This document shows positions 32,862-36,520 of a stretch of 64,000 nucleotides of DNA, piece after piece. The notes below the pieces were generated by a model that was not told where the DNA came from, ran no database searches, and saw only the letters and a program-made list of their open reading frames with translations. Origin of the DNA: Pseudomonas gozinkensis (GTDB lineage: Bacteria; Pseudomonadota; Gammaproteobacteria; Pseudomonadales; Pseudomonadaceae); the NCBI RefSeq assembly GCF_014863585.1, contig NZ_CP062253.1, positions 6,128,001 to 6,192,000 on the forward strand. Direction: 5' to 3'. Within the stretch, counting starts at the first letter, position 1. Every line of letters starts with the position of its first letter. The position numbers and the translations under genes were made by a program.

Positions 32862-32893
32862 GAAAGGGGAGCCCATGGGCTCCCCTTTCTTTT
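32862..32893 (+). terminator. Rho-independent terminator after the RlmI-like gene
   Basis: Perfect 13-bp stem, GAAAGGGGAGCCC (32862-32874) and GGGCTCCCCTTTC (32877-32889), followed by TTTT. Confidence 0.93.
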
Positions 32894-32896
32894 ATC

Positions 32897-33136
32897 TCGC
32901 ACTTTGCTTTCCTACATTTATCGCCCTGTCGACGCGCAGGACATTTCCGTGAATACTTTATTTACTGACATTTAACTTACACACTCACTTCCAACCGAAG
33001 ATCACTCCGACAAAATTACTGGATTATTCCTACTTAATATTTGCTTGCGATTAATCCATTACAAACTATTATTAAGTCGTCACCACGGAGGTGACACCAA
33101 CTAACCACGAAGCAACAATGAACAAGGAGTTCAATC
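32897..33136. other. AT-rich leader and promoter region of the peptide/SagB cassette
   Basis: Clearly AT-richer than the flanks. It holds a candidate sigma-70 promoter: TTGCGA at 33045-33050 and TATTAT at 33067-33072, 16 bases apart. It also contains the GTCACC-ACGGA-GGTGAC hairpin (33079-33095). No gene with recognisable coding pattern was found in 32897-33110. Confidence 0.5.
33079..33129 (+). promoter_or_regulatory. Two RsmA/CsrA-like GGA motifs in the leader
   Basis: The first motif is ACGGA in the loop of a perfect 6-bp stem, GTCACC (33079-33084) and GGTGAC (33090-33095). The second is CAAGGAG (33123-33129), which is also the Shine-Dalgarno of the 23-codon gene. A loop-displayed ANGGA plus a second copy at the ribosome site is the usual layout of Gac/Rsm targets in pseudomonads. 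Binding is an inference. Confidence 0.5.
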
Positions 33137-33208
33137 ATGAAAGCAATTACTCTGGAATCCCGCTCCCTCGCAAACCTGGCTTTTCTGGTCGCACCTAAAG
33201 CCCGTTAA
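33137..33208 (+). CDS. 23-residue peptide, candidate precursor or leader peptide
   Basis: A very short gene, ATG at 33137 to TAA at 33206-33208, with AAGGAG seven bases before the start. The product begins MKAITLESRS, has a hydrophobic middle (LANLAFLVA) and ends PKAR. It has Thr5, Ser8 and Ser10 but no Cys, no signal peptide and only an internal hydrophobic patch. It is followed by a strong hairpin and then by SagB-type dehydrogenase, diiron oxygenase and exporter genes. A ribosomal-peptide precursor is the most interesting reading; a regulatory upstream peptide is the main alternative. I do not recognise the sequence. Confidence 0.6.
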   Translation: MKAITLESRSLANLAFLVAPKAR

Positions 33209-33216
33209 GTAAGGTT

Positions 33217-33246
33217 GGCGCTGGGTATAGCCGGCTACCCAGCGCC
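33217..33246 (+). promoter_or_regulatory. Perfect 11-bp hairpin between the peptide gene and the SagB-type gene
   Basis: GGCGCTGGGTA (33217-33227) pairs with TACCCAGCGCC (33236-33246) around an 8-base loop. It begins 9 bases after the peptide stop. No T-run follows, so it is better read as an mRNA-stabilising or partial-attenuation element that favours the peptide over the downstream enzymes. Confidence 0.75.
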
Positions 33247-33283
33247 TCTGACAAAGCACCTATCCAGAGCAGCGTGCCCCAAC

Positions 33284-34357
33284 ATGCATATAAACCCTTA
33301 TTTATTCATACTGCCACGAACGCCCGGCCAGATAGTCTGGAACTACAAAGACCATACTCAACACGAACTTGACCTTGAGTACTCTTCCCGACTGACGCAA
33401 CTTGTCCACAACCCTGACTTATATGACAGCAGCAACATAATAGACACACAGCTATTAAATGCCGGAATACTGATTTCTTCAAAAAACTCAGCACCTGCCT
33501 GGGGCTGGGATGAACTGTCCAGGATCTACCATATCGGGACTCGGGATATTCCTTGCGAACACACTCCCCGAAACATTCAGGAATGGTCCAGGCAATACCT
33601 CGAGCACTGCAATACAGTGCTTGCCACTCCACCGCCGGTCGACATCCCTGCGGATACCCGTCCGGACGCACTCATCGCCCTACCCGCACCGCTCGTACTG
33701 AATGACGACAGCCTGTCGAGTTCACTGACCCGGAGAAAGACCTGCCGATCCTTCACCGGCGCCGCCGTGTCGCTGGACGATGTCGGCACCTTGCTCTACC
33801 TGTCACTCGGTTACCTGCGAGAACGCGAAGCCGATTGCGACGACAGCATCGCCGATGGACTGAGCGCGCGGCGCAGCAGCCCTTCCGGGGGCGGGCTCAA
33901 TGCCTGCGCCGGGTACGTGTTTGTCCAGAACGTCGACGGACTGGCGCCCGGCGTGTATGCCTACCACTCCGTCGAACACGCCTTGAGCTTCATCAACCCC
34001 TTGCCCGACACCGCGCCCGGCAATCTGCTGGGGGGCCAGCATTTCATCAATAACCTGCCATTGGGATTGTTCATCACCGCCCGCTTCGACCGGCTCTGGT
34101 GGAAATACCCCCACTCGCGCGCCTATCGAATGGCGTTCGTCGAAGCCGGGCACCTTTCACAGACGTTTCAGCTGGTGGCCACAGCCCTGGGTATGAACAC
34201 CTGGCTGACGGGCGCGTTTTCCGATGATCAGGTCGAAACGTTGCTGAAGCTCGAGAACAGTGCAGAGCAACCCTTGTTCTTTGTCGGTTGCGGGGAAAGC
34301 GACGGTCAGGCGATGTGCCAGGAAATGCGTGACCTGCTGCGTGAGGCACAACCATGA
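33284..34357 (+). CDS. SagB/McbC-type FMN-dependent dehydrogenase
   Basis: A 357-residue nitroreductase-fold protein of the SagB type, whose RiPP members oxidise azolines to azoles. The N-terminal third (1-120) is a helical extension. FMN-binding segments are RRKTCRSF (150-157) and RRSSPSGGGLNA (196-207). A Lys274-Tyr275 pair in WWKYPHSRAYRMAFVEAGH matches the catalytic Lys-Tyr of McbC-like oxidases. I chose ATG 33284, just after the hairpin; a TTG at 33215 would place the start inside it. Its stop overlaps the next start (ATGA). No YcaO cyclodehydratase is nearby, so azole formation is not assured. Confidence 0.85.
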   Translation: MHINPYLFILPRTPGQIVWNYKDHTQHELDLEYSSRLTQLVHNPDLYDSSNIIDTQLLNAGILISSKNSAPAWGWDELSRIYHIGTRDIPCEHTPRNIQEWSRQYLEHCNTVLATPPPVDIPADTRPDALIALPAPLVLNDDSLSSSLTRRKTCRSFTGAAVSLDDVGTLLYLSLGYLREREADCDDSIADGLSARRSSPSGGGLNACAGYVFVQNVDGLAPGVYAYHSVEHALSFINPLPDTAPGNLLGGQHFINNLPLGLFITARFDRLWWKYPHSRAYRMAFVEAGHLSQTFQLVATALGMNTWLTGAFSDDQVETLLKLENSAEQPLFFVGCGESDGQAMCQEMRDLLREAQP

Positions 34358-35310
34358 GCGCCCTCGCCCCGGAACCGGTCTTTCAGTTCACCCTGAGTGA
34401 CTGGAACACCCGCGCCTCGGTTCGCACCAGTTCTCACGATTACCGCTTACCGGATGACCTGCAGAAACAACTGGAGACCCGGCACTGGTTTCCGCCGGCG
34501 TTCCTGCCCTACCTGGCCCACCCGGTCATCGAAGCAGCGGGCCGTTCGATGCTGCATCGGCTTACGGCCCGGCATCTGGTGCATTTTCTCGACTACACCA
34601 CGCTACTTGAACACCGAATCGTCAATCGCGCCGTCGAAACCATCGTCCACGGCGAGCTCCCGGTCGAGGTACCGGCGCCGATGAAAACGGCCGCACTCCA
34701 GCTCTACACCGACGAGGGCTATCACGCCCTGTTTTCCAGTCAGGTGGCGGAGCAGATTGCTGGCGTCTACGCCCTCAGCGCGCGTCCGGCGATGCCCAGG
34801 CGGATCACCCGGATGAACCTGCTGATTGCGCGCACCGGGCAGGAGCAACGGCCGCTGGTGTGCTTTCTTCTGGGTTTCGTCTCGGAAACCATCATTGCCC
34901 GTGAACTGCTGGATGTATGCCGCGACAGCCTGGTGTCCGGGGTCAACGACATGTTGCGCGATCACCTGACCGACGAAGCGCGCCACAGCCGCTATTTCAC
35001 CGAAGTGTTCCACTACCTCTGGCTGCGCCTGGGCCCGCGACAGAGAACGTTCACCGCAACGACCTTGCTCGACATTTTCGCAATCTTTTTCGAAGTGGAT
35101 GAGCTCTGGCTGCAGGAAAGCCTCAGTGGCGCAGGTATTGCTAACACGACGGTGACGGACATTCTCGGCACGATGACAACCACCCAGGCCAGTCAGCGGC
35201 GGGCTCGCGCCGGCAGCCTCGCCACACTGAACGCATTGAAGAAAGCCGGCTTTTTCAACGAACCTCAAAACCAGACACTATTTGCCAAGGCAGGACTGAT
35301 CGATGGATGA
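34354..35310 (+). CDS. AurF/CmlI-type diiron N-oxygenase
   Basis: A 318-residue helical, non-heme diiron protein. The ligand pattern of AurF is intact by spacing: Glu86, then Glu121-x-x-His124 (DEGYH), Glu178 (VSETII), His204 and Glu208-x-x-His211 (HLTDEARH). The Glu-35-ExxH and HxxxExxH spacings match what I recall for AurF. Enzymes of this type oxidise amines to hydroxylamines or nitro groups. Its start overlaps the SagB-type stop and its stop overlaps the MFS start by 8 bases, so translation is coupled across the cassette. The substrate is unknown; the peptide or a derived amine is the leading guess. Confidence 0.85.
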   Translation: MSALAPEPVFQFTLSDWNTRASVRTSSHDYRLPDDLQKQLETRHWFPPAFLPYLAHPVIEAAGRSMLHRLTARHLVHFLDYTTLLEHRIVNRAVETIVHGELPVEVPAPMKTAALQLYTDEGYHALFSSQVAEQIAGVYALSARPAMPRRITRMNLLIARTGQEQRPLVCFLLGFVSETIIARELLDVCRDSLVSGVNDMLRDHLTDEARHSRYFTEVFHYLWLRLGPRQRTFTATTLLDIFAIFFEVDELWLQESLSGAGIANTTVTDILGTMTTTQASQRRARAGSLATLNALKKAGFFNEPQNQTLFAKAGLIDG

Positions 35311-36520
35311 CGGACAACCTGTGGTAACCCGACAACAGCAGCGCGGAGCTGTCAGTCTTTTGCTGGCAATGGTGTTGCTCGGCGTCTTTCCACTGGATGT
35401 CCTGCTGCCTTCATTCCCCGCACTCGCCGAGCACTTTCGCAGCACCCCGGCGGACATCGCCCTGTCGATCAGCCTGTTCGCCGTCGGGATTGCCTTCGCC
35501 CAGTTGCTGATCGGGCCGCTGTCGGATGTGATCGGGCGCAAGGGCCTGCTGCTCGCCGGCATGAGCGTTTCGATGCTCGGCGCCCTCGGGTGCGTGATGA
35601 CCTCGGACTATTCGCTGTTTCTGATTTTTCGGGTGGTGCAGGCGCTGGGGTGCGGTTGCTTCGTGCTGTCCCAGGCGCTGGTGCAGGACCTGTTTGAAGG
35701 CGAGCAGCGTGATCGCCTGCGGATCCTGATGGTCACCGCCGGCGGGATTTTCATCTCGATATCGCCGCTGGCCGGCACCTTTCTTCAGGCGACATTGGGC
35801 TGGCGCGGCAGTTTCTGGGTGTTCATCGCATTATCAGCCGCAGTGCTGCTCAAGGCCTGGCTGTTTCTGGAGAACACCCGACCGACCGGCAGTGGCACAC
35901 ATACGAACTTCCTCACGGCCTATCGACGGGTTCTGGGAGATTTCGACTTCGTCGGCTACTGGCTGATTTCAGCATTTGCATTCGCCTGCCATTTTTCATT
36001 CATCGTGATCTCGCCGCTGATTTTCATGGATCGGCTGCAACTGTCCGCTTACGAATTTTCGTTGATCCTGTTGATCTACGGTGCGGCTTACGTCACCGGG
36101 GGCATCCTCGCCAGCGTGCTGAGCAGGCGCATCAACAGCGGCCAGCAGATGGTCGTCGGCCTGAGCCTGATCCTGTTCGCCGGCGTGAGCATGCTGTACC
36201 TGTCGTCGAACCTTGCACTGGCTCCGGCGACCGTGCTGATCCCGATGCTGATCTGTACCGCCGGCACCACTATTGCCCGGCCGGCCGCCACGTCCCGGGC
36301 CATGAGTCTGTTTCCGGAAAACGCCGGCACCTCGGCCTCGGCCGGCAGCACAATCATTTTCATCTGCGGCGGGTTGATCAGTGCCTTGATCAGCCTGAGC
36401 CCGACCACTCTGCAATCCACGCTGGGCTACAGCTTCGTGATACTCAGCGGGGTGGCACTGGCACTGAACGCGCGGATCGGTCGGCGCAACGATCTGGTGG
36501 GGCAACCGGATAGCGATTAA
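35303..36520 (+). CDS. MFS transporter, Bcr/CflA-like exporter
   Basis: A 405-residue inner-membrane protein with about 12 hydrophobic helices. The A-motif is GPLSDVIGRKGLLLAG after the second helix, and ALAEHF and the VQALGCGCFVLSQALVQDLF segment fit the Bcr/CflA drug-efflux group. It closes the SagB-diiron-MFS cassette, overlapping the oxygenase gene by 8 bases, and is therefore the probable exporter or self-resistance pump for the product. Confidence 0.87.
   Translation: MDDGQPVVTRQQQRGAVSLLLAMVLLGVFPLDVLLPSFPALAEHFRSTPADIALSISLFAVGIAFAQLLIGPLSDVIGRKGLLLAGMSVSMLGALGCVMTSDYSLFLIFRVVQALGCGCFVLSQALVQDLFEGEQRDRLRILMVTAGGIFISISPLAGTFLQATLGWRGSFWVFIALSAAVLLKAWLFLENTRPTGSGTHTNFLTAYRRVLGDFDFVGYWLISAFAFACHFSFIVISPLIFMDRLQLSAYEFSLILLIYGAAYVTGGILASVLSRRINSGQQMVVGLSLILFAGVSMLYLSSNLALAPATVLIPMLICTAGTTIARPAATSRAMSLFPENAGTSASAGSTIIFICGGLISALISLSPTTLQSTLGYSFVILSGVALALNARIGRRNDLVGQPDSD

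Follow-up and report, generated by a model that had tools for sequence, protein, structure and literature searches.

Gene layout of the cassette

We analysed a stretch of 64,000 nucleotides (the window) of the Pseudomonas gozinkensis genome (G000; 6.56 Mb, one contig), covering positions 6,128,001 to 6,192,000 of the forward strand of NZ_CP062253.1. Between an RlmI-like gene and ilvD it carries four genes, which encode a peptide of 23 residues, a SagB-type dehydrogenase, an AurF-type diiron N-oxygenase and an exporter of the major facilitator superfamily (MFS) (Table 1). A reading of the sequence alone had described a short gene with a good ribosome site, a hairpin and three overlapping genes, all of which stand, with an ATGA overlap between the open reading frames (ORFs) of sagB and aurF and one of 8 nt between aurF and the MFS gene. 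The left end is AT-rich, as that reading also noted, with a GC content of 45.6% at positions 33000-33499 against about 61% in the surroundings. As judged from sequence comparisons and predicted structures, the cassette is likely to be a minimal pathway akin to those of ribosomally synthesized and post-translationally modified peptides (RiPPs), in which the SagB and AurF enzymes would oxidise the peptide and a small product would be exported.

A short peptide conserved with the enzymes

The case for a precursor begins with the occurrence of the peptide. The sequence-only reading had tied its interpretation to conservation of the peptide together with the enzymes, and when we looked for enzyme loci without it, the peptide was present in all 146 examined loci with a detectable SagB gene. 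These come from AurF-family loci and the window (L001-L093, L111-L114, L145-L148 and L158-L205) and amount to 118 distinct loci with 76 different peptides, since some genomes were fetched twice; AurF served to find every one of them, which makes the count conditional on it, and loci with AurF traces and no SagB (L092/L112, L153 and L193) lie outside it. An encoded precursor-like peptide that is conserved with putative maturases, by which RiPPs are recognised, is thus found here. When the window and L001-L080 (2.19 Mb) were scanned on both strands with a permissive motif for the peptide, 81 matches were obtained, one per source and always at the peptide, and this occurrence exceeds chance. No family in Pfam or NCBIfam matches the peptide, PqqA included, and its identity as a PqqA was rejected on this ground.

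All 106 distinct peptide DNAs encode Asn13, 105 encode Glu7, 105 Ala12 and 103 Lys2, while residue 6 is always Leu or Met and residue 11 always Ile, Leu or Met. Ala12 is encoded by all four synonymous codons, which indicates that selection acts on the amino acid; Glu7 is nearly always GAA and Lys2 nearly always AAA, and conservation at these two positions is therefore less informative. The pooled ratio of non-synonymous to synonymous polymorphism (pN/pS) is 0.43 over 94 distinct DNAs of 23 codons. Glu7 and Asn13 hold their distance from the start codon while peptide length runs from 21 to 26 residues, the C-terminal tail varying in both sequence and length. The only replacement of Glu7, by Gln, belongs to a locus with a broken SagB, L091 (also listed as L111). 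No conserved column of Cys, Ser or Thr was found among positions 1-18, beyond which the tail is variable. The last residue is Arg in 93 of the 106 DNAs and Lys in 8; a C-terminal Arg was considered as the modified residue after the 80 closest loci and dropped because far loci end in K, Q, S or A.

Two putative maturases and a pump

The SagB-type protein scores 117.4 bits against TIGR03605 (SagB family peptide dehydrogenase; cut-off 78.4) and also matches the nitroreductase family PF00881. Its likely start is the ATG at 33284, because homologue lengths cluster at 354-360 residues (106 of 120 listed homologues, the other 14 having 364-376); an alternative ORF of 380 residues from a TTG at 33215 runs through the hairpin that follows the peptide gene. 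With the 357-residue start, the Lys-Tyr pair that the sequence-only reading had placed at 274-275 is numbered correctly, and it is invariant in 19 of 19 sequences. A Foldseek search with the predicted model returned ThcOx first and BmdC fourth. Residues 7-59 form three strands and two helices in a medium-confidence model, ThcOx aligns from residue 1, and this β-β-β-α-α region is possibly peptide-binding, perhaps as a RiPP recognition element; no profile matched it, and likeness to PqqD found no profile support.

The AurF-type protein passes the gathering cut-off of PF11583 (76.8 bits against 29.6) and falls far short of the family of AurF proper, 4-aminobenzoate N-oxygenase (NF045603; 53.7 bits against 620). 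All seven diiron ligands (E86, E121, H124, E178, H204, E208 and H211) have the spacing noted from sequence alone and are invariant in 19 of 19 sequences. The predicted model aligns with the AurF and CmlI structures at template modelling (TM) scores of 0.66-0.75, and a PDB search with the window protein matches AurF at E = 6e-15. The AurF tree is unresolved, and its rows L094, L102 and L109 look like wrong frames. The pump is related to CmlA by family profiles and is a near relative of the Bcr/CflA family, below the TIGR00710 cut-off (188.1 bits against 200.9; E = 3e-55).

Table 1. Genes and predicted signals of the cassette, with the related short ORF of Streptomyces plasmids
Feature	Coordinates	Strand	Basis or remark
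Intrinsic-terminator-like hairpin with T-run, 3' of the RlmI-like gene	32862-32889	+	consensus match only; 1 found against a mean of 0.5 in shuffles
Sigma-70-like promoter candidate, TTGCGA-16-TATTAT	33045-33072	+	consensus match only; 3 found against a mean of 0.6 in shuffles
5' hairpin, GTCACC-ACGGA-GGTGAC, upstream of the peptide gene	33079-33095	+	stem present in most distinct loci
Peptide gene, precursor-like, 23 aa, MKAITLESRSLANLAFLVAPKAR	33137-33208	+	ribosome-binding site AAGGAG 7 nt before ATG
Hairpin just 3' of the peptide stop codon, covarying in relatives	33217-33246	+	folding and comparative alignment
SagB-type flavin mononucleotide (FMN) dehydrogenase, 357 aa, Lys274-Tyr275	33284-34357	+	family profiles, homologue alignment, predicted structure
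AurF-type (ferritin-like) diiron N-oxygenase, 318 aa, seven ligands kept	34354-35310	+	profiles, alignment, model
MFS exporter near the Bcr/CflA family, 405 aa	35303-36520	+	family profiles
Conserved 22-residue ORF of Streptomyces plasmids, upstream of AsnB	L206 3409-3477; L207 4491-4559; L210 4508-4576		

RNA structure around the peptide gene

In an alignment of 23 loci, 22 of them distinct, 90.2% of the cells are paired in the hairpin after the peptide stop codon; sliding the structure along the alignment gives 50.6% at most. The hairpin collects 29 two-sided changes against 11.6 in shuffles, counted on the same sequences from which the structure was derived, and the number of pairs with two-sided changes, 6, is not above shuffles (5.1). 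The median folding energy of the 60-nt segment behind the stop codon is -24.2 kcal/mol over 118 loci, compared with -16.0 for mononucleotide shuffles, and far loci form different stems at about the same place. Upstream of the gene, a stem of at least 5 pairs with at least 3 G-C, located 80-16 nt before the ATG, is predicted for 108 of the 118 distinct loci, compared with 8.4% of mononucleotide shuffles, a count that takes the best hairpin per sequence, with position and loop differing among loci. In the window its loop reads ACGGA, which we take to resemble an RsmA-type GGA motif; that candidate was dropped, as many relatives lack GGA. No Rfam family came near its gathering score.

From these structures we infer that the peptide segment of the mRNA may be stable and abundant. 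The terminator-like hairpin downstream of the RlmI-like gene suggests that the cassette is its own, independent transcription unit.

Distribution and mobility

Scanning genomes with the AurF protein gave 123 confirmed relatives, and the best 80 of these (L001-L080) were taken. SagB and the MFS gene adjoin AurF in all 80, and the peptide is present in all 80 as well (78 by motif, L026 and L054 by ORF scan). The rlmI-like gene and ilvD are also on every one of these loci, with ilvD matched only in part in L044 and rlmI lying 2.7 kb off in L075, so by gene order the cassette is long resident at the rlmI/ilvD site. In the window, Pfam identifies the flanking genes as a MutM-type glycosylase, an HDOD protein, an S-adenosylmethionine (SAM) methyltransferase with a PUA domain (the RlmI-like gene) and ilvD. 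The sequence-only reading had seen an insertion into a conserved housekeeping order: its identification of the flanks stands, and its picture of an insertion is amended to that of a long-standing resident which lies elsewhere in other lineages.

These other sites emerged from 20 divergent stretches, in the farthest of which AurF identity to the window protein drops to 33-40%. SagB is found in 19 of them, the exception (L193) starting at a contig end, and the peptide in all 19 (18 first, L190 on a further look). Seven of the 20 show rlmI and ilvD; the other 13 show neither within the fetched stretch and fall, by shared neighbours, into about eight other settings. The cassette is therefore known from about nine chromosomal settings in all, and the peptide, SagB, AurF and MFS genes are the only ones seen in every one, which bears out the earlier proposal that the four form one cassette. 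Among ORFs of at least 70 aa, only SagB, AurF and MFS are common to all settings; one ORF cluster (c14) is shared by two settings, L187/L188 and L201, where it lies at a distance. On this comparative evidence the cassette moves as a whole unit.

In a sample of 398 Pseudomonas genomes, 103 match AurF at E ≤ 1e-40, the window's own genome and broken copies included, and two genomes (G641 and G770) have two copies each. At E ≤ 1e-3 the count rises to 237, and the other 134, which reach at best about 1e-20 among the matches listed, are taken for paralogues. In a sample of 398 Pseudomonadota genomes, with at most 5 candidates scored per genome, the AurF profile matches 6, four of them at E ≤ 1e-130, and all 6 are Pseudomonas (1 of 212 genera), none being found outside that genus. 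A search of the class with alignment A4 matches 53 of 274 genomes at E ≤ 1e-3; of the matches listed, only that in the window's own genome is full-length.

The cassette also decays. Seventeen of 149 loci were flagged as broken cassettes, a few perhaps only through alignment-end effects, and since SagB or AurF frames are broken or split in several (L080, L111, L148, L170, L194, L196 and L197), the trait seems to have been lost repeatedly. In two remnants (loci L112 and L153; genomes G031 and G464, the stretch from G464 being short) the MFS frame is intact, AurF is broken, and SagB and the peptide were not found; this resembles what an immunity pump might leave.

Relatives on plasmids

A plasmid search with AurF returned 8 records. 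Three Streptomyces plasmids (L206, L207 and L210) carry AurF relatives of 26-31% identity at E = 4e-38 to 3e-21, values that compare only roughly with the PDB match given above, the databases being different. AsnB lies upstream of AurF in all three, with another gene between them in L206, and AsnB is itself preceded by a number of small ORFs that have a ribosome site. One of these, of 22 residues, is alike in all three plasmids (MQKYIKPATKKADFGTVVKNNV, MRKYTKPTAKTISQGTVLRDNA and MRKYTKPAVKAITQGTVLRDTA) and has what we presume to be a lasso-like YxxP leader motif. An MFS gene and a PqqD protein directly follow AurF in L207 and L210; in L206 the MFS gene is on the opposite strand and no gene is annotated as PqqD. 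We note these loci as a second candidate system of a peptide and an N-oxygenase. The other plasmid AurF relatives adjoin pabB or non-ribosomal peptide synthetase (NRPS) genes.

Nine plasmid loci with SagB relatives were also opened (L211-L214 and L216-L220). Three of them, each a single case, have an MFS gene directly after SagB and a short ORF upstream: L211 (Maritalea), L216 (Priestia) and L212 (Streptomyces). The short ORF of L212 is one of several candidates, and this locus also adjoins a radical SAM homologue of RiPP maturases that scores below their cut-offs. As a side observation, the short ORFs of L211 (7870-7947) and L212 (4418-4519) end alike, in VLDVNGVC and MLDLNGNC. The same layout was not seen in L213, L214, L217, L219 or L220, and L218 has SagB, an amidase-like gene and an MFS gene, but no convincing short ORF.

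Comparison with known systems

With the SagB/McbC/ThcOx oxidases of azole RiPPs (thiazole/oxazole-modified microcins, microcin B17 and cyanobactins) the cassette shares an oxidase of the FMN nitroreductase fold that passes TIGR03605 and keeps the Lys-Tyr pair. It differs in having no nearby YcaO cyclodehydratase and no conserved Cys/Ser/Thr column in the peptide, and a standard azole RiPP is ruled out on these grounds. That no YcaO gene adjoins the cassette among its housekeeping neighbours had been read from the sequence, and agrees with the genome, in which the two YcaO matches lie about 2.0 and 2.8 Mb away. The second of these matches, at G000:C1:4160263-4161237, is unlinked to the cassette. 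The peptide maturation dehydrogenase systems of TIGR04511 (SagB_rel_DH_2) are related through SagB, but the window protein scores 160.8 bits against a cut-off of 240, which rules them out; the two members that do pass it (L115 and L116) lie among different genes, where the candidate precursors are ORFs of about 100 aa.

The arylamine N-oxygenases AurF and CmlI share the fold and all seven diiron ligands with the cassette enzyme, yet identity is about 20%, the NF045603 score is far below cut-off, and no other kind of gene is common to the cassette settings. The mangotoxin, fragin and valdiazen clusters of Pseudomonas or Burkholderia combine an AurF-type enzyme with NRPS-based synthesis and, to our knowledge, lack a short peptide; we know of no AurF-type RiPP maturase. 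In the pathway to pyrroloquinoline quinone (PQQ), the cofactor is cut out of PqqA, a peptide of similar length. The two resemble each other in precursor length (21-26 residues), in the very small number of invariant positions and in a small product, which is presumed for the cassette. The cassette peptide matches no PqqA family and has other invariant residues, and the cassette lacks a radical SAM gene.

The available part of one paper describes the OS3 cluster of Pseudomonas sp. Os17, with a SagB-type enzyme, an 85-aa precursor, and acetyltransferase and peptidase-like genes (PMC7726476); it is likewise a Pseudomonas system of SagB-type enzyme and small precursor, but its precursor is longer and that part names no AurF gene. 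Heme-oxygenase-like diiron oxidases are linked to ribosomal peptide modification in the available part of a review (PMC13108848); these, too, are diiron N-oxygenases, but of a fold other than the ferritin-like one of AurF. Among the open-licence papers searched in PubMed Central (PMC), we found no description of the cassette or its peptide, no paper pairing SagB with AurF, none holding both words, and no known cluster in which the enzymes make a non-peptide product, the outcome that the sequence-only reading had named as telling against it. There is a fair chance that the cassette represents a new RiPP class.

A proposed pathway and its alternatives

In the pathway we propose, a short mRNA segment with predicted hairpins on both sides would yield an excess of the peptide, which would serve as substrate or scaffold for two maturases, which may recognise or change the conserved Glu7-Asn13 stretch. 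Following the chemistry of their families, the SagB-type flavoenzyme would dehydrogenate a bond around residues Glu7 to Asn13, and N-oxygenation of a nitrogen in that region or at a freed end would fall to the AurF-type diiron enzyme. A housekeeping protease could then free a small oxidised product, the variable tail probably being discarded, and the MFS pump would export it; known Bcr/CflA pumps move small molecules. The nearest working analogy would be the excision of PQQ from its peptide.

Two observations weigh against this pathway. In the window, taken by itself, the sagB start codon lies inside a further small predicted stem (33270-33287), and one aligner scores free nitroreductases and ThcOx as equally good matches to SagB. 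Because of them we slightly lowered our confidence in peptide maturation and slightly raised that in a regulatory leader peptide, through which ribosome stalling and RNA structure would control a detoxification operon of a SagB nitroreductase, an AurF N-oxygenase and an MFS drug pump. Leader peptides of such size exist (TnaC and ErmCL), and the order of short ORF, hairpin, enzymes and CmlA-related pump would suit one. Ribosome-arrest peptides are expected, however, to conserve the end near the stop codon, and here the spacing from the start is fixed and the end is variable, which disfavours a leader. Moreover, the conserved post-stop hairpin ends 37 nt before the sagB start, SagB passes a peptide-dehydrogenase cut-off, the Streptomyces AurF relatives likewise lie near a conserved short ORF, and a detoxification operon alone leaves the peptide unexplained. 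We regard a leader as unlikely.

A little less likely again is that the enzymes convert a free metabolite into a small molecule, with the peptide as a carrier, chaperone or subunit that is not consumed. AurF and CmlI do act on small amines, and the exporter is near a family of small-molecule pumps, but a conserved peptide of 23 residues would then have no evident reason, and no metabolite-supplying gene is common to the different settings. We give least credence to an unmodified or lightly modified bacteriocin or signal that is secreted, with the MFS protein as immunity: immunity genes sometimes persist as the pump does in the G031 and G464 remnants, yet these have a common neighbour gene and may be one event, two maturases travel along with the peptide, and no gene for an ATP-binding cassette (ABC) transporter or peptidase is common to the settings.

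Implications

If the peptide is indeed matured, the cassette would be among the smallest peptide-maturation systems, with one substrate of 23 codons, two enzymes and one pump, and well-studied N-oxygenase chemistry would be carried onto ribosomal peptides. More tentatively, and with somewhat less than even confidence, we propose a new RiPP class in which a ferritin-like AurF-type N-oxygenase and SagB would build an N-oxygenated small molecule from the Glu7-Asn13 stretch, as PQQ is built from PqqA, and in which the Streptomyces AurF relatives would act likewise, together with AsnB and in two of the three loci PqqD, on another peptide, of 22 residues. Within Pseudomonas, the cassette AurF was matched in about a quarter of the sampled genomes, some of the copies being broken.

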